DNA from: Entoloma clypeatum
Lineage: Eukaryota > Basidiomycota > Agaricomycetes > Agaricales > Entolomataceae
Assembly: GCA_963565915.1 (NCBI GenBank)
Contig: OY751491.1
Span: 310,001-374,000, forward strand
DNA: 64,000 nucleotides
Direction of reading: 5' to 3'
In this document: positions 14,299-64,000 of the stretch, piece after piece
Layout of the letters: each line of letters starts with the position of its first letter
How positions within the stretch are numbered: the first letter of the stretch is position 1
Translations under genes and position numbers: made by a program
The notes under the pieces: generated by a model
What the model saw: only the letters and a program-made list of their open reading frames with translations
What the model was told of the DNA's origin: nothing
The model's database searches: none

Positions 14299-15559
14299 AG
14301 TAAGGACAGAGTATGTTCAGAGGAACAAAACACGAAGAGGTAATGTTCCACTTTGTTGGCTTAAATACAAGAGAGCTCCGACTGACAATTTGGCATCAAA
14401 TTTAAACGAGACATCACTCTATTATTCAGACCCATCTTGAAGAAATACAAGTCTGTCAACGATATCTAGTGCCTGTCCCCATAATTCTGCCCGTGCCCTC
14501 CAAATGAAATCTGGTAAAGCTACCCACAGTTCTTTGCCACGCCGCATTCTAATAACCTCATAACTAGGATATACTGCATCCTCCCACTCTTCAGAAAGCA
14601 GTCCATAGCCTGATGGAATCAGTTGTAAATTATGAACATGATCAAGGGCCGTTGAAAAAATAATTTCAACATGATTATTTTCAAATGGACTCTGGTGCTT
14701 CGGACAAGATACATCCTCAACCTTGAATTTTGATTTGTATGCTTCTTCAATAAATTCTTCAAGATCATTGAAGTCATGCTCTTGCATCTCGCCATCCGTT
14801 TCGAAAAAGTGCGGGATTTCCTCATCTGGCAGTTGTCCTGCGCCACTTTCTCCCTCTGTGCGTTCGTAGACTTCGCCATCTGTGCCATAGAATTCACTGA
14901 TGATATCTGGATGGATACTGGAACAATCATCGACGTAAATACCATGATTGAGCTGCCCTAGAAGCCGTATATCCTAATCTTGAATTCTCAAAGAAACTCT
15001 CATGATAATTTTATAAACGTTGACGTACATTTGGGCTCTGATCATGACCATCACCTGATAAAGGATGTGAGTTCCATTCATCCTGAAAAGCCATACAGTC
15101 GCCGTTTATCATGTCAAGAAAAAGATAATGAAGAAGCCAAAGATGGCAGGAGTTCTTCCTATTGAGACAGTGCAGGCGTTCAAGACGATAAAAGAAAGCA
15201 CGCCAACACCGGACAAACTGTGTGCCAACCTCTACCCATAACCGTTCAATCCGTGTATTATGAGTAGATCTGTGGTAAATACCTCAGTTGAGAAACCAAC
15301 TTTATTTGGAACAGAAATAATGTACGATCCCCAAATGAAAGAAGCCCGATTAAGGCCTTTCGCAACAATCATGTATAGTGCGACACCCTTATTTTCACGA
15401 CCATGGTCGCTACGTACACGCGACGGTGATCCATATTTTTCTATGGCCTCAGAAAATAAATGAAGCACAGTTGATGCTCGATTGTTGGTGCTTGCATGAA
15501 GACCAGTGACCTGAAGAAAGATAAGCACAAGTATTGAAGAATCAACTCAAATCTACATA

Positions 15560-15564
15560 CCACA
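15560..15564. repeat. Gypsy target-site duplication, left (CCACA)
   Basis: CCACA directly abuts the 3' LTR (minus-strand sense) and is repeated at 22677-22681. On the host gene strand it reads TGTGG and spans the last codon of an exon (GTG) and the first G of its intron. Confidence 0.9.
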
Positions 15565-16039
15565 TGTTAAGAACTGATCGACAAAACGTCGGAGCTACGT
15601 CGGACGCGTCGGAAGGTCGGAAGGTCGGAGCGCGTGCAACGTAGGGGCAAGGACTTGGCTTCAACTTGTGTGTTGCGCCCTCGCTAATACGTTGGTGTCC
15701 TTATTTCGGAGGATCGGAGGATCGGAGGTCGGAGGTCGGACTCAAGTTAAGAGTCGGAAAGAGGACGGGAGGTATGATGTCGAATCTAAGTTGATATTCA
15801 AACTGAAGCTAATACACGATTCTACATAAGTTTAAATACTATGTCGGAGGACGTGTGGCTTCGTCGGAGTCGGATAACGAGTGGCTGTCGGAGATTCTTA
15901 ACATAAGTAAAATGATCGGATGTAAGTAATGTACGTAGTAACGAGATTCATAACAGTAAGTATGCATAATAAGTATTAGTCAAAATGTCGGAGGTGTCGG
16001 GATTGGTCGGAAATCGTCGGAATGGATCGGAATGTAACA
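15565..16039 (-). repeat. Gypsy 3' LTR
   Basis: 475 bp, matching 22202-22676 without visible differences. It contains 20 TCGGA pentamers on the plus strand and no TCCGA. In element orientation it begins TGTTACATTCC and ends TTCTTAACA. Confidence 0.95.
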
Positions 16040-16040
16040 G

Positions 16041-16053
16041 TATTTCCCCCTTA
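16041..16053 (-). other. 3' polypurine tract
   Basis: In element orientation TAAGGGGGAAATA lies one base before the 3' LTR (which starts TGTTAC), the expected place for the plus-strand primer of reverse transcription. A near copy occurs inside pol at 18784-18796. Confidence 0.75.
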
Positions 16054-16205
16054 GGGCCGAACCTATGAGGCCTAAGGACCTAGGTGGTCGGTGCGCGTGA
16101 ACTGCGTCATGTGATGTGTTGGTTGAAAATACCGTCTGAGTGGTTTTTTCTTCTTGTTCCCCCATTCTCTTTTTGTTTTAAACTCTTCCGAAAATAAACC
16201 TCAAT

Positions 16206-17170
16206 ATGTCGGCATCCGATTTTCAAAAGGAGATGGAGGCGCTGCAGGCTAAGCTCGCGGAGGTGGAGGCGAGAAAGCGAGCAGCGGAGGAGGAGGCTGC
16301 GAGGAAGGCTGAGGAGGAGCAGAGAGCGGAGGAAGAGAGGGCTGCGGAGGCGGCGCGGTTAGCGGAGGAGATGCGTCGGGCGTCGGAGCTGGCGGCTCAG
16401 AAAAGGGCCGATGAAGTGGCCGCTGCGCAAGGCGCATCGAGCAAGGGGTCGGGGGAGCCGCAGGCGGAGAAGAAGAAGAAGACGACGAAGAAGAGGAAGG
16501 TGGAGGAAGTGTCGGCGATGGTTGGAGAGGGGTCGGGAGTCGGGGTCGGGGTCGGCACCTGTGATAGGTGCATTGTGAAGGGCGTCGAATGCGAACGCGA
16601 TGAGTAAGTCCCTCTTTGGTTCGTCTCTTCTGTTTTAACCTTGTTTTTTTTTTTAGGAATAAGTCGTCCTGCAAAGGATGTATCAAAGACAAGAAGAAGT
16701 GCGAGGTCGGAGCGTCGGAGGGGAAGTCGGAGGTGAAGGAGGTGAAGAGAACGGTGAAGGTGGTTAAGGGGAAGAAAAAGGCGTCGGAGATGCCGTCGGA
16801 GAGTGGGTCGGAGGACACCGTCTTGGGTGTCCTCAAGATGATACTGGCGGAGACGAGGCAGGTGAGGCGACTGCTAACAGCAGTCGAAGGCTCGGTGAAC
16901 ACCGAGTACCAACCCAAGTCGCCGGAGGTGTCGGAGGAAGGGTCGGAGTCGGAGATGGATACGGCGGAGGAGACGCACGAGTTGAGACTGGAGAAGAGGA
17001 TTGCGAGAAGGATTAGGAAGGACCTGGTGAATAGGAAAAGGTTGGAGTTGCCGGAGCTGTCGGACGATTCCGACATGTCGATTTCGGAGCCGTCGGAGAA
17101 GGCGGAGTCGGGTAAGGAGGAGTCGGACAAGGAGGAGGGTCCGTCGAACAAGAAACAATGTACTAAGTAG
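16206..17170 (+). CDS. Antisense gene of the Gypsy element: coiled-coil protein with Zn2Cys6-type cluster, 303 aa
   Basis: Exons 16206-16603 and 16657-17170 are joined by a 53-bp intron (GTAAGT...TTTTAG). The first 80 residues are a charged Ala/Glu/Lys/Arg coiled coil, followed by a Lys-rich nuclear-signal-like stretch (KKKKTTKKRK). Cysteines at 119, 122, 129, 138, 141 and 148 give C-X2-C-X6-C-X8-C-X2-C-X6-C, the spacing of fungal Zn(II)2Cys6 DNA-binding domains. The intron falls inside the cluster and restores its frame. The C-terminal half is acidic and Ser-rich. The gene lies wholly between pol (stop at 17198) and the 3' LTR, tail to tail with pol with 27 bp between. Its promoter must lie in 16040-16205 or in the LTR read backwards. 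Function is not known; DNA binding is inferred from the pattern. Confidence 0.8.
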
Positions 17171-17197
17171 ATAGAATAGTACTTGTTTTTTCTTGTT

Positions 17198-20100
17198 TCA
17201 GAGCGATGTGAGCGGACCCGGTTTGTCGGGATAAGCGGAGTGAAAGTCGGAGACAAGCTCGGGGGCGTTTTCCAATTCATTGGCTGGTAGCCAAGAGAAT
17301 TCTTCATCAGTGTTTTCATATCCTAACCAACGGACGAAATATAGTAGCTTGCAGCTACGTCGTCGGTCGATCTTTGAGTCGACTATTTCAGCGATCTCGT
17401 ACTCAAGTTCTCCGTCAATGTCAATCGGAGGAGGCGGAGGTTGGGTCCGATTCGGAATGGTGTTCGGAGTTGCGGGTTCAAGCATGGAGACGTGGTAGAC
17501 GGGGTGAACACCGCGGAATGTGTCGGGGAGTCGGAGGGTAAAGGAGTGTGTGCCGGGTTGTGCAATGATCTCGTATGGTCCCAAGTACTTTTCTGAGAGT
17601 TTCTTGGATGGGCGTGTTGTGCGGAAGAACTGTGCTTTGACGAAAACCTGTTGTCCGACAGAAAATGTCGGAGGTGCGATCCGATTATTGTCGGAGGACT
17701 TCTGGTAACGTCGTTGAGTGTCGGAGATGGTGGCTTTCAGTTCTTGGTGAAGTTCGTCTAAGTCGGTCACGAAGGATCGGGCTCGGGAAGAGGCGAGGTC
17801 TCGTTCCGGGTGAACAGTAATGTTCGGATGGTAACCCTTGTTAGCAAAGAAGGGAGATATGCCAGTGGTAGCACTAGGTGCGTTGTTGTACGCGAACTCC
17901 GCAATCGGAAGGAGAGCGGACCAGTTGTCCTGTTGGTAGTTGCAGAATATCCGCAAGTACTGTTCGAGGGTCTGGTTAGTGCGTTCGGTTTGGCCATCGC
18001 CTTCGGGGTGGTAACCGGAGGTGAAGTGGAGGGTCATGTTTAGAGCCTTTCCGAGAGATCGGAAGAATCGGGAGACGAATTCGGGGCCGCGGTCGGAGGT
18101 GATATGTTCGGGGACGCCGTGTTTAGAGAAGACATGCAATACGAAGAGTACGGCAAGGTCTTCGGAGGTGCAGTGAATTGTTGTCGGAATGAAAATACTT
18201 TGTTTCGTTAATCGGTCAACGATAACGAGGATTGAATCAAAGTTGTCGGAGGTCGGAAGGGTCTCGATGAAATCCATTGAGATAGAATTCCAAGGACGTT
18301 CGGGGATCGGAAGCTGTTTGAGTAGGCCGTAAGGCTTGTGTCTTTGTGGCTTCGATCGCATGCAAGTGGTACATGACTTGCAATAGTGTTTAACGAAATC
18401 TCGTATTCCGGGCCAGGTATAATCACGCTGAATGAGACTGAGTGTCTTGTTCTGACCTGGGTGTCCAGCAAGCATATGATCGTGCTTGTGCTGTAGGACT
18501 CGGAGTCGGAGGTCGTCGGAGTCGGGAACGTATATCCGATCGTCATGTCGGAGGAAACCATCGGGGTCGAGAGACCAGCGGGGTTTAGGATCTTTAGAAA
18601 GAGTGTCGTAAAGAGTGTCGGAAGGGAGTGCTGTGAGTATGTCGTGGTGAAGCTTTTCTGTGTCCATGATAATGGTTGCACGGAGGACGGGCTCAAGGAG
18701 TTGAGTCGCGCGAACTGAAGCGGAGAGCTGTTCTTGCGAAAAGACTGGTCGGAGGTTGGTCGGATTGATGTCGACGTAGTCGCTATTTCCCCCTTTAGGA
18801 TAGACATCCCAACGTCTAGTTAGAGAGTCAGGTTTAGTTCCCAATCGGCCGGGGCGGAATCGGATGACGAGGTTGAACTGAGAAAGGTATTCCGACCATC
18901 GGACTTGTCGGCGTGAAAGAACTTTGGTGGTGGCAAAATACTCGAGATTTTTGTGGTCGGTAACGACGTCAATCGGAGTACCGGAGCCTTCGAGGTAATG
19001 GCGCCAAATTTTAAACGCTTCGTAGATGGCAAGAAGTTCCTTATCGTGGGTGTCATAGTTTACTTCAGGGGCCGTGAAGGTGCGGGAATGGAATGCGACG
19101 GGGTGGACTTCATTGTCGGAGGTGACTATCGACAGAATAGCCGCTAGGGCATAGTCGGATGCGTCGGTTTCGACAATTATCGGAGAGTCGGGAATCCAGT
19201 GTGTCAGGATCGGAGCGGTGGTAAATGCCTTTTTCAGGTCATTAAAAGCGGTTCGAGCGTCGTCGGAGAACAGCCAAGTGGCATGTTTCCTGGTTAAACG
19301 AGTGAGTGGAATAGTGATGTTGGAATAGAATGGAATGAAACGTCGGTAAAAGTTTGCAAAACCTAAAAAGGACTGGACGTCCTTCACTCTGCGCGGTTCA
19401 GGCCAATCCTGAATAATCTTGACTTTCGCTTCCGACATTTTGAGTCCGTCGGGAGAAAGGATAAATCCAAGATATTCTACAGTTTCGGCAGAGAAATCGC
19501 ACTTGTCGGCGCGGGCGTAAAGACCATGTTGTCGGAGTCGTCGGAGGACTTCTCGGACATGTTTTTTGTGTTCCTCGGGGTTGTCGGAGTAGATCAGGAT
19601 GTCGTCGAGGTAAACGGTAACGCAGTTGTCCAGAAGGTCGGAGAAGATGTCGTTCATAAAACGTTGAAAGGCTGCAGGTGCGTTAGACAATCCGAATGGC
19701 ATGACTAACCATTCAAATGATCCATAGCGAGTGCGGAATGCAGTTTTCCATTCGTCACCTTCAGCGATGCGGACTAGGTGGTATGCGTGTCGGAGGTCTA
19801 TGGTGGTATAAACGCGTGCTTTTCCGGCAGTGGCTAAGAGGTCGGAGATGAGCGGAAGTGGGTATCGGTCCTTCTTCGTGATTTTGTTCAGGCCTCGGTA
19901 GTCGACGCATAGTCGGAGTGATCCATCTTTCTTTCGGACGAAGAGGATCGGAGCGCCGTGAGGTGAACTAGAAGGTTTGATGAAACCGATATTGAGGTGC
20001 TCATCGATGAAGTCTCGGAGGGATCCAAGTTCGGATTGCGAGAGTGAGTACATCGGACCAATCGGAGGGGAAGTACCTTCCTCCAAATTGATTTTGAGGT

Positions 20101-20931
20101 CATACGGTCAGTGGGGTGCAAGGGTGTTGGCTTTTTTCTTACTGAATACATCAGCAAAATCGTGGTATTCCTCGGGTATGCCAGAGAGGTCGGGAGCGTC
20201 GTCGGAGACAGACGCGGAATTGGCGGAGATGTCGGAGACAGACGCGGAATTGGCGGAGATGTCGGAGAGGTGAACGCGGAAAGCGTATGCCCCAGGAGCT
20301 TTACATGCATGGAGATATGCGGCTGCATTGACCATGGTAATCTGTGGCGGGTCGGAGGTGTTCGGAGTGAGCGGATCGGAGGTGCCCATCGGAGAGGGCG
20401 GACACTGCAGAGGTGGCGGAGCTGCCTCAGCAGTCGACGTCGGAGTCGGAGTCGGAGTGTCGGGTAACGTAGAACGGAATAAGATACTGCCCAATACCCA
20501 GTCAATCAACGGATTGTAGCGGGTGAGCCAGTTGTGTCCTAGAACCAAATTACAAGACGAATCGAGGGTTGTCACGTAAAATGCGACGGTCAGAAGTTCA
20601 CCGGAAGGAAATCGGAGAGGAAGATCGATAGATTGTGTGATATACGTATTTGAAGAACCGTCAAAAAGTTTCAAAACCATAGGTGAAGGAATCGGAGTCG
20701 GAGATAAGTTTAAAGAAGAAATAAATCTGGTATCTGCGAAGCAATGTGTAGAACCAGAATCAATAAGAGTCTTTATCGGAAGAGAATCGGAAAAGGTCGG
20801 AGATATCAAATCAATACATAGAGAGTTCGGATTTGAGAGAGCGGACGCATTGAGTCGGAGGGTTTCCAAAGGTGCACGAAAGGAGTCAACGCAATCCCCA
20901 GTACGTGCTGGAATCTGAGGACTGCTTACTA
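17198..20931 (-). pseudogene. pol: Gypsy pol: protease, RT, RNase H, integrase, chromodomain; one internal stop
   Basis: Open in the -1 frame relative to gag from the slippery site. Protease: LIDSGSTHCF. After a TGA at 20108-20110 (between TLAPH and PYDLKI, where relatives have Arg) the frame continues for about 962 codons. Reverse transcriptase has YLDD about 160 codons in. RNase H follows (VETDASDYA, TDHKNLEYF). The integrase zinc finger has H-H-C-C (LAGHPGQ...CKSCTTC). The catalytic core has MDFIETL, TSDRGPEF and HPEGDGQTERTNQ (D, D, E), then a GPY-type module (KYLGPYEII). The chromodomain has IVDSKIDRR, YFVRWLGY and WLPANEL, typical of chromoviruses that target heterochromatin marks. Apart from the TGA no damage is seen. 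Confidence 0.93.
18784..18796 (-). other. Candidate central polypurine tract
   Basis: In element orientation AAAGGGGGAAATA, sharing 12 consecutive bases with the 3' polypurine tract at 16041-16053 and the preceding CCTA. It lies about 330 bp from the midpoint of the element, in the linker between RNase H and integrase, where it encodes the residues PKGGN. Confidence 0.6.
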
Positions 20932-22155
20932 TTTTTTTGACTCGGTCGTCTTCTCCGATTTGTCCTCAGCTTGGGCCGCGCGGGCTTTTGCTTTGGCGTT
21001 AGAAGACGATTTCTTCGAGCAGTCGGAAGCCCGATGACCAACGTTGCCGCAAAACATGCATAAATTATTGTCAAATCGTCGTTGGCGTTCTTGGGGAGTT
21101 AATTTCCCATCTTTGCCAAGTTTGTCGGAGAGGGCGGATTTCGGAGAGGTGGATGACGATTTTTGTTGTTGTTGCGAGTTGGGTTTAGACGATGAGGAGT
21201 TGTTGTTGGAGGATGATGAAGCGGGGGTCTGTTTTTTGTCGGATTTGTCGGATTTGTCGGATTTCGGAGTAGATTTGTCGGAGGAGCGCGATTTCTCGCG
21301 TTGACGTTCCCAGTAGCGAGCATCAATGTTATGGGCCATTACTTTCAACTCGGCGAGAGTCTTTGGTTTGGGAAAAGTCCCCAAAACGTCCTTGATGCGT
21401 TCCGCTAAACCGGTATAGTACCGATATCGGAGCGCGCCATCATCCCACTGCGTGCGAGCGGAAAGACGTTTGAAGTCCACGTTGTAACGTAGGATCTTCT
21501 GATTGTCGCACATCCGAAGGTGATCCAGGCTATCCTCTGCTTCTCCGGTCGGATCGATAGGTCCGAATTCGGATCGGAGGATGTGCACAAAGGCGGACCA
21601 GTCGTCCAACCAGACAGAGTCGTCGTCGGACTCTCCCAAGAGGGTGGGCTCAAACCATTCGAGCGCGGTTCCTCGGAGGTACGACAGAGCGAAACTGACT
21701 TTGTTATCATCATCGTCAAAGGCGGGGTTGTTTCGGAAATATAGTGTGCATTGTGCGAGGAAACTGGTGAGTTTCCGAGAGTCGGAACCGTCAAAAGTGT
21801 CGGGTTCCTTCGATTTCTTTTTCGGAGTTTTCGGAGTCTCTCTACGTCGGAGCTCCTGCGTCATAAGCATAATTGCTTCGGCGAGGTTTGGAGTTTGCTC
21901 GCGACGGAAAGGATTGTTATCGTCAAAAGGAGAGGTCGGTGATTTAAAAGGACGGAATTCTTCAGGAATCGGAGGTCCTTGTGTCTGAGGTGTTCGGAGA
22001 CGAGGTGTCGGAGATATGGGGTCAGGTTTGGGTGCAGATTCTTCTGCTGGAATATCTTGGAACGTATGTAGAAATGTCGCCCTGGTGTCCTGCAGGTTTG
22101 AAGCTTCCGCTGCGGCTGCTGCTGCGCGGGAGTTCTGTGTGTTGCGGGCTGCCAT
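20929..22155 (-). CDS. gag: Gypsy Gag, 408 aa
   Basis: ATG at 22155, 46 bp inside the 5' LTR. The N-terminus is Ala-rich. The central capsid-like region has FALSYLRGTALEWFEP and a conserved helical segment through RYRYYTGLAERIKD. The tail is Ser/Lys/Asp-rich, followed by one CCHC zinc knuckle, CMFCGNVGHRASDC, which binds RNA during packaging. It ends TESKK at TAG 20929-20931. The last codons form the slippery heptamer. Intact. Confidence 0.93.
   Translation of the reverse strand: MAARNTQNSRAAAAAAEASNLQDTRATFLHTFQDIPAEESAPKPDPISPTPRLRTPQTQGPPIPEEFRPFKSPTSPFDDNNPFRREQTPNLAEAIMLMTQELRRRETPKTPKKKSKEPDTFDGSDSRKLTSFLAQCTLYFRNNPAFDDDDNKVSFALSYLRGTALEWFEPTLLGESDDDSVWLDDWSAFVHILRSEFGPIDPTGEAEDSLDHLRMCDNQKILRYNVDFKRLSARTQWDDGALRYRYYTGLAERIKDVLGTFPKPKTLAELKVMAHNIDARYWERQREKSRSSDKSTPKSDKSDKSDKKQTPASSSSNNNSSSSKPNSQQQQKSSSTSPKSALSDKLGKDGKLTPQERQRRFDNNLCMFCGNVGHRASDCSKKSSSNAKAKARAAQAEDKSEKTTESKK
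20932..20938 (-). promoter_or_regulatory. -1 ribosomal frameshift site A_AAA_AAA
   Basis: On the minus strand the end of gag reads TCA AAA AAA TAG. The heptamer fits X_XXY_YYZ in the gag frame and directly precedes the gag stop. The -1 frame is open from here into pol (ATA GTA AGC AGT...), and no other frame leads into the protease. Confidence 0.78.
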
Positions 22156-22187
22156 AACTGGAATTTGAAATACGGATAAGCGAGTGG

Positions 22188-22199
22188 CAGTTTGAATAT
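22188..22199 (-). other. Primer-binding site, self-priming type
   Basis: Two bases inside the 5' LTR the element reads ATATTCAAACTG. These 12 bases are the exact complement of CAGTTTGAATAT inside its own LTR (22442-22431), which lies 33 bp after a TATTTAAA box and is therefore the likely RNA 5' end. This is the arrangement of Tf1/sushi elements, where the RNA 5' end folds back as primer. Confidence 0.7.
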
Positions 22200-22201
22200 A
22201 C

Positions 22202-22676
22202 TGTTAAGAACTGATCGACAAAACGTCGGAGCTACGTCGGACGCGTCGGAAGGTCGGAAGGTCGGAGCGCGTGCAACGTAGGGGCAAGGACTTGGCTTCA
22301 ACTTGTGTGTTGCGCCCTCGCTAATACGTTGGTGTCCTTATTTCGGAGGATCGGAGGATCGGAGGTCGGAGGTCGGACTCAAGTTAAGAGTCGGAAAGAG
22401 GACGGGAGGTATGATGTCGAATCTAAGTTGATATTCAAACTGAAGCTAATACACGATTCTACATAAGTTTAAATACTATGTCGGAGGACGTGTGGCTTCG
22501 TCGGAGTCGGATAACGAGTGGCTGTCGGAGATTCTTAACATAAGTAAAATGATCGGATGTAAGTAATGTACGTAGTAACGAGATTCATAACAGTAAGTAT
22601 GCATAATAAGTATTAGTCAAAATGTCGGAGGTGTCGGGATTGGTCGGAAATCGTCGGAATGGATCGGAATGTAACA
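22202..22676 (-). repeat. Gypsy 5' LTR with promoter
   Basis: 475 bp, matching the other LTR. Element-sense TATTTAAA at 22475-22468 is a TATA box. The predicted transcript start is near 22442, so U3 is about 22676-22443 and R begins at 22442. Confidence 0.93.
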
Positions 22677-22681
22677 CCACA
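22677..22681. repeat. Gypsy target-site duplication, right (CCACA)
   Basis: Second copy of the 5-bp duplication, abutting the 5' LTR. Confidence 0.9.
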
Positions 22682-23654
22682 CGAGAATACCCATCCACAA
22701 AGCCATGGATAACAATTCCCCATAGAATGAGCTTGTGATGTCCATCTACATGCCATAATGCATCAGGGCGTGAGACTTTGTACTTGCGGCGCTGAATCGT
22801 GGCACGTTTGCGAAGAATACGACCGAGGCCATCAACACGTTGGATTGAAGCTTGGACACGCCGTTTCTGAATGCGGAGACCCTGTCGCCTCAAAAAGCCA
22901 ATCAAGTATCGTATGCCAGAGTCAGGCTTTGTAGCACGGAAAGTCTTGACAAGCAAATCAAGATCATGATTGGAAAGGGCTGAGAATTTGCTTGAGATAC
23001 CATATAGGCGCATATAATAACGGAGAGTGTGGCGATGAATTCCCATCATATCAGCAAGCTTTGTCAATGAAATTCGTCGCTGGGCAGACATTGCTTCTTG
23101 TAGAAAATCTGGATCAATAACTTTTCATGGACGACCATGCTGGCTAGTGCGGACACATGTAATTGGTTCAATAACACCAATATTCAATTCCTCCCTATGG
23201 CAAGTTCTTTATAAGGAATTATGAACTAGAAGGAAATGCCACGCACCGAGATACCAGAGCCTCGCGTGCCTGATTCAAACGTGCAACAAGTGTACCGACA
23301 TGCTCGGTACAAGTATGAACCCAGTTCAGAAGTCGAGGGCTTTGTTGAGCAGCTTCTTCAAGCTCAAGAAGAATTGGAACGACATCCAAAGCAAGTCTCT
23401 CGACGTGAAGCTTTAACCTGATAGTGTCAGCTTCTTCAGAAAGAACATCAGAGGCAGAACAGAATATGTCGTGCACGATTTGATGTGCAAGATGGACATT
23501 TGGTGACCATATTTCATCAGTTGGAAGAGGTGGGATGGGCATTCTTGTACCAGTTGGCAAATAGCATGTAAAGAGTTCAATTTCGGATTGACGGAACTTG
23601 AACTGAGGTGTGGTGACTCCTATCTAACACTTTGCTGGCACCCTTTGAACTAGT

Positions 23655-60088: not shown

Positions 60089-60233
60089 TTTGGGGTTGTA
60101 GCAAATTGTACCAAACATCCTCAGGATTATAGTGACCTGTAACACACCCTTCCAGCCATAGCAGCTGTAACATTCTGTAGCATCAAACTGTGGGAGTGCT
60201 GTAGTGGGGTAGCAGCCATAGCATCACAGGTAG

Positions 60234-63200
60234 TCAACCTACACTGTGTTGTAATTTACAGTCCAGCAAAGGCATACAGTGTATGGTAAATTACAGAAGC
60301 AGCGAATTCGCTACAACACCAGCGAATTTACCCAGCGAACGGCGAAATAATAATGTCACCGGCGAAGAAAAAATGTCGCCAGCGACAACATCCAACAGAT
60401 TGGCAAATAATTCACTGGCAAAAGACACCACGGCGAAAAACCAGCGAAGGACCGGCGACAAACCAGCGACATGGCAACAGGCCATCGGCAAATTGATGAC
60501 CCATCGGCGAAAGCGAGCCTTGAGTGCCAACAGCACTGCAAATGAAAAGAATGATGCTACCGACAGAGCAGCGAATAATTCACCGGCGAGAGACACCACA
60601 GCAAAAAACCATCAAAAGACCGGCGACAGACCGGCGACAGGCCATCAGTGAAAGCAAGCCTTTAATCCATGCTGATGTAATGGTTTTTTACCATTTTTGA
60701 TGCTTATGACCAGTTTGTGCTGCTCATGACTGATTGAATAAAAATCCATGTATATATTCTGAGCTTTTCAGCATGTGTCCTCCTCATTGCACAGTCAGTA
60801 ATGGGTGGATGTGTGGGTTCAATGTTGCATGATGCGCGACACACACACATCACACATGTCAAATACATATAAACAAATCTCCAAAAATATCGCACATCCT
60901 CCTCATTATCTCTACACAGGAACAAGTAAACTTTTCTACTATATCAGTTAGGTAGGGGAGCATGTTGTATCATCAAGTATGTATTTATTTTATCAAATTC
61001 CGCCACAGATTCCAAGTTATAGAGGTCCCATGGTCTGAACCAAATAATAGTAAACAATACACCAAAGACATCGCGCAGGCATGCACGGTGCCTTCCTCAT
61101 GATTTAATAATAGTTTGAAGTAATAGGACTCATGACTGCATATGTATTCACCTTGTGACACACTTTGTATAATTTTTAGAAGTCCAGATATGATAGAAAT
61201 AATCAAATGTGCAGATTTGAGGAAAAGTGTCATATCTCCCTAAGGAATGAACCGAATTTGAAAAATGAAGGTGTTCTGAGATCCCCTGAATGTGGAGAAT
61301 CCAAAGGTGAAATAAAAGATTTTGGTCAAATTTTCGACCTATTTTCCTCATATTCACCTTATCAAGTCCTTGAACTTTAGTTGAATGGTCTGAGGAGGTT
61401 TACATACAATGTTTCAATGGTATACAAACAGTACACGTAGACTAAAGTGGTTGTGGAAAGGGGAAAGGAGGAAAACATTGGTTTTGGTGTTTGGAGTAAC
61501 CCATGATGCACTGTTGCATCACGATTTTGCCTGTGTTTTGATCTCTCATTTCAGAATACAGATTCTCTATCATACATAGCTTGAGTATCTAACTGTATAT
61601 ATACTTTTCATGAGTTCATAGGCATCTATCCATTAGTTAACAAGCATATTTGTGGCCCATCAAGTGGAAAATGTAGAAAACATGATTTCGTTCCCAACAC
61701 TGTCATTGTTATGCACGTGGGATTCTGAGACATATTTTGGACAAAGTCTTATCTCCAGTCTTCCACATGGCATGGATTCTCTTGGAACTTTTTGTATCAA
61801 GTAGATGTACATCTGATACACCCTATACAACCATCTATAGATTTATTGACCATACAATAATAATGCCAGATGATGAATACATAGACATTTTTGATGTGCA
61901 AGTTGTCTGATACTTTTTAACACCTATCTATACATCACACCATTTACTATTGATGCGTTGAGACCTACTCACACTAGAGAATAGCCATACACAGGTGCCC
62001 AGATTGCACCGCAGGCATAAAATGATGATCTGTGCCAAAGATGAGGACATACATTTCAGCTTTTTTCACCATGTTCTATCTCTACATGGTATCCGCATAT
62101 CTTTATTCATATCCTCACATAATCAGGAATGAACCTCCAGATGGTTCTGTGGTGGGGAGAGACTTTCTACGGTGTATTAGAACAAATATACTGGTAAGCT
62201 TCACTTTCAACTGTGCTACAGCTTTGCTGGCACTGCACACATGCCCTAGATAACCGTTGAGATGGTGACTCATTGACCAGCAAAAGAACATTGTCGCCAC
62301 AGCCAGTTTTTTGCTGTGGTGTCTTTTGCCAGTGAATTATTTGCTGATTTGTTATTAGCATTGTTTTCTATTATTTGGTTCAGACCATAGGACCTCTATA
62401 ACTTTAAATCTGTGGCTAATTTTCTTAAAATAAATACATACTTGATGATACAACATGCTCCCCTACTCATCTGATATAGTAGCAAACATTGCTTGTTCCT
62501 GTGTAGATATAATGAGGAGATGTGCAATATCTTTCGACATTTGTTTACATGTATTTGACATGTTTGAGGGGTGTGTGTTGCACATCATCCAACATTCGCC
62601 GGTTTTTTGCCGGTTTTGTGCCATGGTGTCTGTCACCAGTGAATTATTCGCTGATCTGTCATTAGCATTGTTCTTTGTATATGGAGTGTGGCCGACACTC
62701 AAGGCTTGCTTTCGCTGATGGGTCATCAATTCGCCGATGGCCTGGTGCCGTGTTGCCGGTCTTTTGCCAGTTTTTCACCAGTTTTTGGCTGTGGTGTCTT
62801 TCGCCAGTGAATTATTCGCTGATCTGTCGTTAAGATTGTTCTTTGTATATGGAGTGTTGCCGACACTCAAGGCTTGCTGCTGCCGATGGGTCATCAATTC
62901 GCCGATGGTCTGTCGCCGTCTCGCCGGTTTGTCGCCGGTCTTTGGCCAGTTTTTCGCCGTAGGATCTTTCGCCAGTCAATGATATGCCGATCTGTTGTTA
63001 GCATCATTATTTTAATTTGCAGTGTTGCCGGCCCTCAAGACTTGGTTTCGCCGGTGGCCCATTTATTTGCCGATGGCCTGTCTCCGGTTTGTCGCCGGTT
63101 TGTCGCCGGTCTTTCACTCGTTTTTCACTGTAGCATCTTTCGCCGGTGAATGATATGCTGATCTGTCATTAGCATCGTTCTTTTAATTTGCAGTGTCGCC

Positions 63201-63656
63201 GGCCCTCAAGACTTGGTTTCGCCGGTGGCCCATTTATTCGCCGATGGCCTGTTGCCAGTTTGTGGCCGGTCTTTTGCCGGTTTTTTGCTGTGGTGTCTCT
63301 CGCCAGTGAATTATTCGCTGCTCTGTCGTTAGCATCGTTCTTTTCATTTGCAGTGTTGCCGGCACTCAAGGCTTGCTTTCGCCGATGGGTCATCAATTTG
63401 CCGATGGCCTGTTGCCGTGTTGCCGGTTTGTTGCCGGTCCTTCGCTGGTTTTTCGCCGTGGTGTCTTTTACCGGTGAATTATTTGCCGATCTGTTGAATG
63501 TTGTCGCTGGCGACATTTTTTCTTCGCCGGTGACATTATTATTTCGCCGTTCGCCGTGGTAAATTTGCTGGTGCTGTAGCGAATTCACTGCTTCCATAAT
63601 TTACCATACACTGTATGTCTTCGCTGGACCGTAAATTACAATACAATGTAGGTTGA
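60234..63656. mobile_element. Foldback-type element, 3.4 kb, with long inverted arms
   Basis: The left arm (60234-61065) and right arm (62340-63656) are inverted copies, starting TCAACCTACA at each end. Matching landmarks: TACAGTGTATGGTAAATTA, GAATTCGCTAC, AATAATAATGTCACCGGCGAAG, GCATGTTGTATCATCAAG and GACCTCTATAACTT. The right arm is longer because it carries five ~160-171-bp tandem units (about 62600-63500) against about two on the left (60340-60650). The 1.3-kb centre has no coding region I recognise. Long inverted arms with internal tandem repeats are the hallmark of foldback transposons. No clean target duplication; GTAG/GTAT at the edges is ambiguous. Confidence 0.78.
62600..63500 (+). 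repeat. Tandem ~165-bp repeats in the right foldback arm
   Basis: Units start at about 62691, 62859, 63027, 63198 and 63358 with GCCGRCMCTCAAG; spacings are 168, 168, 171 and 160. Each contains TTCGCCGATGG, GCCGGT-rich stretches, TTCGCC, GTGAATTATTCGC and CTGTCGTTAGCAT. A further partial unit lies near 62295-62370. Confidence 0.75.
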
Positions 63657-64000
63657 GTATGTGAGCATCATATAGCATTATACCCTGATAGTGCTGTACT
63701 GGAGCAGCACCATAGTGTACCATAACATTGGAGTATAAGAGTACCATAGTCTTATATTGGTATAGCTCCATAATTCTGCCTGTGTGAACAACACAATAGA
63801 AGACAACCCACCACAGGACACAGTGAAACATATGGTTGATGTTACTCATGATAACTCCAAAGAATAACAAGTCAAATGTAATATTATATTAGAGTTTGGA
63901 ATATGATTTGAGAGCATAGAATGTTTCTTTATTGAAGTACTTGTTGAGCCAGAATTCAGTACCATATACAAGGCTGTTGGTCTTGGCAAGTCGACGATCA
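63657..64000. other. Right edge, no gene recognised
   Basis: Low-complexity A/T-rich sequence. The block TAGCATTATACC...AGTGCTGTACTGGAGCAGC (63676-63715) resembles TAGCATCAAACT...AGTGCTGTAGTGGGGTAGC left of the foldback element (60179-60215) in direct orientation. Confidence 0.35.

Follow-up and report, generated by a model that had tools for sequence, protein, structure and literature searches.

Antisense genes lying between pol and the 3′ LTR have been described in the plant retrotransposons Retand, Grande and RIRE2, where most copies of a lineage carry one, and DNA binding is predicted for the Retand TRP28 proteins; retroviruses also have regulatory antisense genes (PMC11963269, accessible part). 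In Arabidopsis, VANC21 binds a 9-base motif that is repeated in its own transposon and causes a loss of DNA methylation there (PMC5735166, accessible part). A Zn2Cys6 protein of fission yeast, Pho7, binds a site that begins with TCGGA and has only one CGG; binding is lost when CG is changed to GC (PMC5559640, accessible part).

We analysed a window of 64,000 nucleotides from Entoloma clypeatum (the whole stretch of DNA under study), in which a Ty3/Gypsy element has a conserved antisense gene for a Zn2Cys6-like protein and in which the motif TCGGA recurs along the element, predominantly facing one way. The gene resembles the plant antisense genes in its position before the 3′ LTR, its retention in the family and its predicted DNA-binding product; unlike here, the plant elements are non-chromoviruses with a TRP28 domain, which Pfam does not find in this protein, and no element-wide motif is described for Retand, Grande or RIRE2 in the text covered (PMC11963269). 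The initial annotation of this locus had stated that LTR elements rarely carry such an accessory gene, which is too strong in view of Retand, Grande and RIRE2, and had named the antisense bZIP gene of some retroviruses as the nearest analogy, whereas the plant antisense genes are closer (PMC11963269, accessible part). Beyond that annotation are the existence of two C-terminal protein types and, as the larger point, the element-wide TCGGA motif. As in the VANC/VANDAL system, a short motif is repeated within its own family and its arrays change by tandem units (PMC5735166; PMC10398659, accessible parts). VANDAL elements, however, are DNA transposons with another protein and have their motif in non-coding regions, whereas here it also fills coding sequence; moreover, VANC function has been shown in Arabidopsis, while the function proposed here is read from sequence.

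The element and its parts occupy the following positions of the window:

15565..22676, − strand: Ty3/Gypsy chromovirus, whole element, with identical LTRs, a target duplication and Pfam domains
15565..16039, − strand: 3′ LTR, with 20 TCGGA and 0 TCCGA on the + strand and motif arrays near 15706-15741 and 15986-16035
16040..16205, + strand: leader of the antisense gene, with a purine tract on the element strand (plus-strand priming), then a CT-rich stretch 5′ of the ATG
16206..16603, + strand: exon 1 of the antisense gene, with an Ala/Glu-rich likely coiled coil, a basic stretch and the first half of the putative zinc cluster
16604..16656, + strand: predicted intron of the antisense gene, 53 nt, GTAAGT...TTTAG, interrupting the putative zinc cluster
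16657..17170, + strand: exon 2 of the antisense gene, with the second half of the putative zinc cluster, a putative amphipathic helix, a putative basic helix and a Ser/Glu-rich tail
17198..20086, − strand: pol (RT-RNase H-integrase-chromodomain), with 46 TCGGA and 8 TCCGA on the + strand
20108..20869, − strand: protease frame, with 18 TCGGA versus 0 TCCGA; an in-frame TGA before RT ends the frame in the window copy
20929..22155, − strand: gag with a zinc knuckle, with 22 TCGGA versus 4 TCCGA
22202..22676, − strand: 5′ LTR, same sequence as the 3′ LTR

The element is 7,112 bp long. Pfam matches to gag, protease, RT, RNase H, integrase and chromodomain all lie on the − strand, and the succession of RT, RNase H and integrase with a C-terminal chromodomain between LTRs, together with the target duplication, places it among the Ty3/Gypsy chromoviruses. 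The two LTRs (475 bp each) have 0 differences between them and are bordered by the 5-bp target duplication CCACA (15560-15564 and 22677-22681), indicating a recent insertion. In the same genome, 22 of the 47 scored pol matches have a 1245-aa open frame, with no stop within the matched part. The CT-rich stretch 5′ of the antisense ATG is a possible promoter. By eye, frames at 15232-15528 and 22585-23091 flank the insertion and may be one gene split by the element; the right-hand frame (22585-23091) is HTH-like and its start resembles an integrase-type protein.

The two exons of the antisense gene (16206-16603 and 16657-17170) join to encode 303 aa and a stop, and the gene fills the space between the pol end (17198) and the 3′ LTR (15565-16039) on the strand opposite to gag, PR and RT-IN-chromodomain. 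A search of the genome for further copies (60.1 Mb, 20 contigs) yielded 50 loci, 45 of them distinct; 41 of these, including the window copy, span the whole region, and 4 partial ones were dropped. The predicted spliced frame (ATG, GT-AG and a single terminal stop) is intact in 36 of the 41 fully covered copies; in the remaining five the start is altered, a stop comes early or the frame is shifted. Splice ends are conserved among the copies. The CDS is divisible by three in 40/41 copies, with 362-452 nt in exon 1 and 499-538 nt in exon 2. Indels in the exons are multiples of three, while intron length is free, varying between 47 and 57 nt mostly in a T run and not kept in threes. The initially annotated coordinates of an intact two-exon gene between pol and the 3′ LTR were thus upheld, and its homologues occupy the equivalent position in many family members within this genome, as in the Retand-type arrangement.

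The antisense protein is under purifying selection. Among the 704 pairs of copies with pS of at least 0.01 (from 780 pairs among 40 copies), dN/dS was 0.18-0.29 by bin. In a frame control on 11 divergent, hand-picked pairs, the true frame gave 0.25, compared with 1.44 and 0.88 for the other forward frames and 1.52, 0.33 and 1.16 for the reverse frames; the reverse frame with the ratio of 0.33 is the one whose wobble positions coincide with those of the true frame. Leaving out sites that touch a CpG, the ratio was 0.20. Since the 3′ part of pol gave 0.29 (8 of the 11 divergent pairs available), selection on the antisense protein is about as strong as on that part of pol. The window copy differs little from its nearest copies, and for these pairs the ratio scatters from 0.29 to 1.16 or is undefined, as expected of young insertions. 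Selection on the protein had been suggested from the intron, which splits the cluster and whose removal restores the frame; the ratios between copies (about 0.25, not near 1), the frame controls and the exon indels in threes agree with it. These comparisons confirm the antisense two-exon frame as a real conserved gene of this Gypsy family, with splicing predicted.

Seven further copies (L061-L067) have a second C-terminal type of the protein; both types share exon 1, the cluster and the residues that immediately follow it. Beyond the cluster, type 2 shares 63% protein identity and 72% DNA identity with type 1 (dS 0.72, dN 0.28), and its frame is intact in 7/7 copies. When the type 2 version was used as the query, 35 of the 150 scored matches were at least 91% identical and the other 115, mostly type 1, were 41-73% identical. 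Because the pol beside four of the seven type 2 copies (matched by position) is 98-99% identical to the window pol, the type 2 C-terminal part looks to have been swapped in by recombination with another lineage; same-genome searches did not find the donor. In two other copies (L068 and L069), the antisense gene has lost the zinc cluster through internal deletions. These copies are young and the adjoining pol is about 100% identical to the window pol, suggesting that the protein is not needed in cis.

Zn2Cys6 proteins have the cysteine spacing C-X2-C-X6-C-X5-12-C-X2-C-X6-8-C, and the family consensus of the first half is C-R-x-x-K-x-K-C. In the antisense protein, cysteines at residues 119, 122, 129, 138, 141 and 148 form C-X2-C-X6-C-X8-C-X2-C-X6-C, exactly as initially annotated, and this spacing fits the Zn2Cys6 pattern. 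The corresponding codons lie between 16560 and 16592 in exon 1 and between 16670 and 16702 in exon 2. All six cysteines are kept in 40/41 copies, one of the 40 having X5 as the last spacer. The second half is lysine-rich (C-I-K-D-K-K-K-C), whereas the first half reads C-I-V-K-G-V-E-C, in which the usual base-contacting basic residues are absent. An Ala/Glu-rich stretch lies N-terminal to the cluster, and amphipathic and strongly basic stretches, which we read as putative helices, lie C-terminal to it; the basic stretch KKKKTTKKRK may be a nuclear signal.

Profile searches gave weak matches to the zinc-cluster family. A 45-aa piece scored 13.1 bits against PF00172 (E 0.11, below the cut-off), and neither the antisense protein nor pieces of it reached the gathering score of 21 bits. 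The same profile weakly matched 6/6 aligned members, with a best E of 0.061 and 9.6 bits for the first member. Against Pfam, the whole antisense protein matched no family at E 1, including PF00172 and the TRP28 domain PF04195. A six-copy profile searched against the PDB returned six sequences up to E 10, of which five were GAL4 or PPR1 (best E 1.1, none significant). The spacing that had suggested a zinc-cluster transcription factor is therefore present, while the PF00172 cut-off, a significant E-value and the basic residues of the first half are missing. Because the spacing fits but the Pfam cut-off is missed and the first-half basic residues are missing, 'Zn2Cys6-like' is a fair name for the protein, which is likely a zinc-cluster DNA-binding protein. 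It shares with Gal4, Ppr1 and Pho7 the six-Cys spacing and, if the proposed binding is right, a CGG-type site; it differs from them in having no significant sequence score and in carrying the usual basic residues in the second half but not in the first, and from fungal Zn2Cys6 regulators in that its gene belongs to a retrotransposon.

Relatives of the protein were also sought more widely. In a very large protein database, residues 84-303 drew 961 candidates, none at E 0.01, and an exon-2 alignment drew none at E 1 among 7991 candidates scored. The window pol had 1273 matches in the same database, the best about 81-82% identical, so related elements are present where the antisense protein finds no relative. 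A search for relatives in viral contigs gave 2 and 28 stretches that fitted a pattern, none of them confirmed; an NCBIfam search led nowhere.

On the + strand, the element contains TCGGA 140 times and TCCGA 15 times, compared with 58 and 65 times in the rest of the window (56,883 bases). The preferred form, GTCGGAG, occurs 59 times versus 0 reversed. LTR, gag, PR, RT-IN and exon 2 all carry the motif; the leader, exon 1, the intron and a 46-nt 5′ untranslated part hold 1 TCGGA in total. In gag-PR-pol, where the motif reads TCCGA on the coding strand, 86 of the 123 places permitted by the encoded protein are filled (70%), and in the opposite orientation 12 of 86. For comparison, the mean filling of the 872 5-mers with at least 30 permitted places is 0.096 (sd 0.078), and only the overlapping word CCGAC ranks as high as TCCGA. 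None of 500 synonymous-codon shuffles reached the TCGGA count in pol, PR or gag. The motif is spread over reading frames 0, 1 and 2 of gag-PR-pol (30, 23 and 33), and conservation at motif residues in pol is 0.749 versus 0.759 elsewhere (60 of the 120 listed relatives). This saturation, combined with equal residue conservation, indicates that codon choice has been bent to the motif and the protein sequence has not. Insertion of motif units into the pol protein was rejected on the same grounds, since motif residues are as conserved as others in these 60 of 120 relatives. In the coding part, 18 neighbouring pairs of motifs are 6-12 bases apart; 2000 random placements gave on average 9.0 such pairs and at most 19.

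Inside the antisense gene, 14 of the 28 places permitted for TCGGA are filled, compared with 2 of 19 for TCCGA. The orientation is the same as in the rest of the element, and the direction of the motif is therefore set by the element, not by the gene that is read. The TCGGA count of the antisense CDS is not above that of synonymous shuffles (14 versus a mean of 12.9; 162/500 reach the count), and its CGGAG count was reached by 0/500. The Ser-Glu and Ala-Glu runs of the protein are encoded by TCGGAG and GCGGAG.

The motif sites turn over among copies. Length differences among 40 LTRs are largely units of TCGGAGGA and TGTCGGAGG (8 and 9 bases), and each LTR of the 21 copies L001-L021 contains 18-23 TCGGA. 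As with the VANC-type motifs, the short motif has accumulated in the element partly as tandem arrays, here with coding sequence included. The C part of the antisense gene has 10 sites in type 1 and 12 in type 2, of which 6 are common to both, so the number of sites is kept while their places change. In the L040 LTR, 7 TCGGA, 8 TTGGA and 6 TCAGA make up, once CpG decay is allowed for, a nearly unchanged number of sites.

C-to-T changes in old copies affect 21-28% of CpG sites and 1-5% of sites in other contexts, and from this CpG decay we infer CpG methylation of the element. Decay was similar at ACG (0.276), CCG (0.259), GCG (0.210) and TCG (0.261), and RIP-like mutation confined to TCG was rejected. 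Loss of motif CpGs was about equal to that of other CpGs in young copies (18/1136 versus 62/3172), somewhat less in middle-age copies (272/1483 versus 976/4129) and equal in old copies (247/467 versus 780/1484), where the motif is not spared.

Other LTR elements of the same genome were compared, namely Gypsy family A (L051-L053), Gypsy family B (L058-L060, with the 3′ end seen in L059 only) and a Copia element (L058). A tblastn search with the antisense protein gave no match in the family A copies L051-L053, and ORF lists of families A and B and the Copia element, read by eye, showed no such antisense gene where the region was seen. With motifs counted in one copy of each, permitted TCCGA places were filled at 23/78 in family A, 12/71 in family B and 5/45 in Copia, none near the saturation described above. 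Other words were enriched. In the Copia copy (L058:2665-7344, + strand), AGTACC occurs 14 times versus 2.3 in synonymous shuffles and 0 reversed, in all three frames, and is possibly another family-specific motif, in an element that lacks the antisense gene. In family A (L051:399-4466), CGGAG, TCCGC and GCGGA exceed synonymous shuffles in both directions; in family B, GACCCT occurs 8 times versus 1.3 expected, which is weak given 4096 words. These weaker motifs in families that lack the gene mean that a motif need not imply this protein, and they weaken the case for linking the motif to the zinc cluster.

CGG is the triplet that zinc clusters recognise, in most cases as a pair, and because it is their classic half-site we propose recognition of TCGGA by the antisense protein. 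We tentatively favour an explanation, close to an even call in our view, in which the likely zinc-cluster product of the conserved antisense gene would bind the TCGGA of its element and keep the family active against host silencing. The antisense transcript would be spliced as predicted and the protein made from it; its six-Cys cluster would bind zinc and recognise TCGGA in its own element. Through its helical parts, the protein would be bound head to tail along same-facing sites, and the one-way orientation of the motif could reflect this assembly. Acting in trans, it would open or activate the LTR, or counter silencing. The combination of CpG decay, a zinc-cluster-like gene and 140 CGG sites can be read, by analogy, as a VANC-like idea with other parts. 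A bolder form, which we consider possible and hold with less assurance, is that the element has been rewritten synonymously into a one-way track of sites for its own antisense zinc-cluster protein, serving self-recognition or anti-silencing along its full length.

Sites in duplex DNA need not face one way, yet 140 against 15 do, and this would suit RNA as well. The motif might act as UCCGA in the genomic RNA, for instance as numerous weak signals for packaging or export, read by Gag or a host factor, with the antisense protein unrelated to it. We regard this as rather unlikely and keep it mainly because other families have motifs without the gene; the Copia copy has its own oriented motif (AGTACC, 14 versus 0 reversed), and the strict orientation of TCGGA holds even within the antisense gene (14/28 versus 2/19). 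However, a CGG word such as this motif is what a zinc cluster would be expected to use; the CGG words of family A stand in both orientations, which RNA leaves unexplained, and among the sampled families by far the strongest motif belongs to the only one encoding a zinc-cluster-like protein. The protein or its transcript could instead be a brake on sense expression or transposition that limits copy number by LTR binding or RNA overlap. The stop codons of pol and the antisense gene are 27 nt apart, so that antisense and sense transcripts would overlap; each LTR has 20 motif sites, and retroviruses offer an analogy in their regulatory antisense genes (PMC11963269, accessible part). A brake would need sites in the LTRs but not in 86 of 123 permitted places within genes, and purifying selection across many copies would be harder to sustain on a brake than on a helper, making this distinctly unlikely.

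Two further explanations would deny a function to the motif or to the gene. Slippage or template switching in tandem units could have produced the motif as a functionless by-product of mutation, in keeping with the 8- and 9-base units gained and lost by the LTR arrays. We think this very doubtful, since in genes the motif is scattered over all three frames, 70% of permitted places are filled one way and 12/86 the other, and motif residues are as conserved as the rest (0.749 versus 0.759 in 60 of the 120 listed pol relatives). It is scarcely credible that the antisense frame arose from motif-rich composition and does not represent a gene. The codons of its Ser-Glu and Ala-Glu runs do consist of TCGGAG and GCGGAG, and the other strand also has an open frame, of 356 aa, but that frame crosses the intron, whose length of 47-57 nt ignores threes. 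The dN/dS values with their frame controls, exon indels in threes beside a free intron length (40/41 copies), conserved splice ends and a second type that is intact although only 63% identical in protein all argue for a gene, and a composition artefact was rejected as the source of frame and motif by the frame controls and synonymous shuffles.

If the favoured explanation of a self-binding, anti-silencing protein is true, the system would be a fungal LTR counterpart of the plant anti-silencing systems, built on another protein class. The element shows a nucleotide motif shaping codon choice over the full length of a mobile element. The proposed pair of protein and site is directly testable, consisting of one small protein and one 5-base site present 140 times. 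Other LTR elements of this genome have weaker family-specific motifs, a hint that self-marks of this kind may be more widespread. HTLV-1 HBZ is an antisense bZIP gene with a nuclear regulatory product; it shares the antisense arrangement with the gene described here and belongs to another protein class, and we know of no element-wide binding motif for it. Among the best-ranked matches of a literature search, which took in few subscription journals, none described a gene of this kind in a fungal element, or a retrotransposon with every gene saturated by a motif.

Elsewhere in the window, two pairs of inverted repeats (10590-10698/24857-24965, 99% complementary, and 11373-11472/24766-24865, 98%) have arms about 14 kb apart, one on each side of the element, and are perhaps two copies of another mobile element. 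A minisatellite within 60231-63659 has units of about 168 bp (62302-63507) and inverted arms (60231-61058) that are up to 93% complementary.
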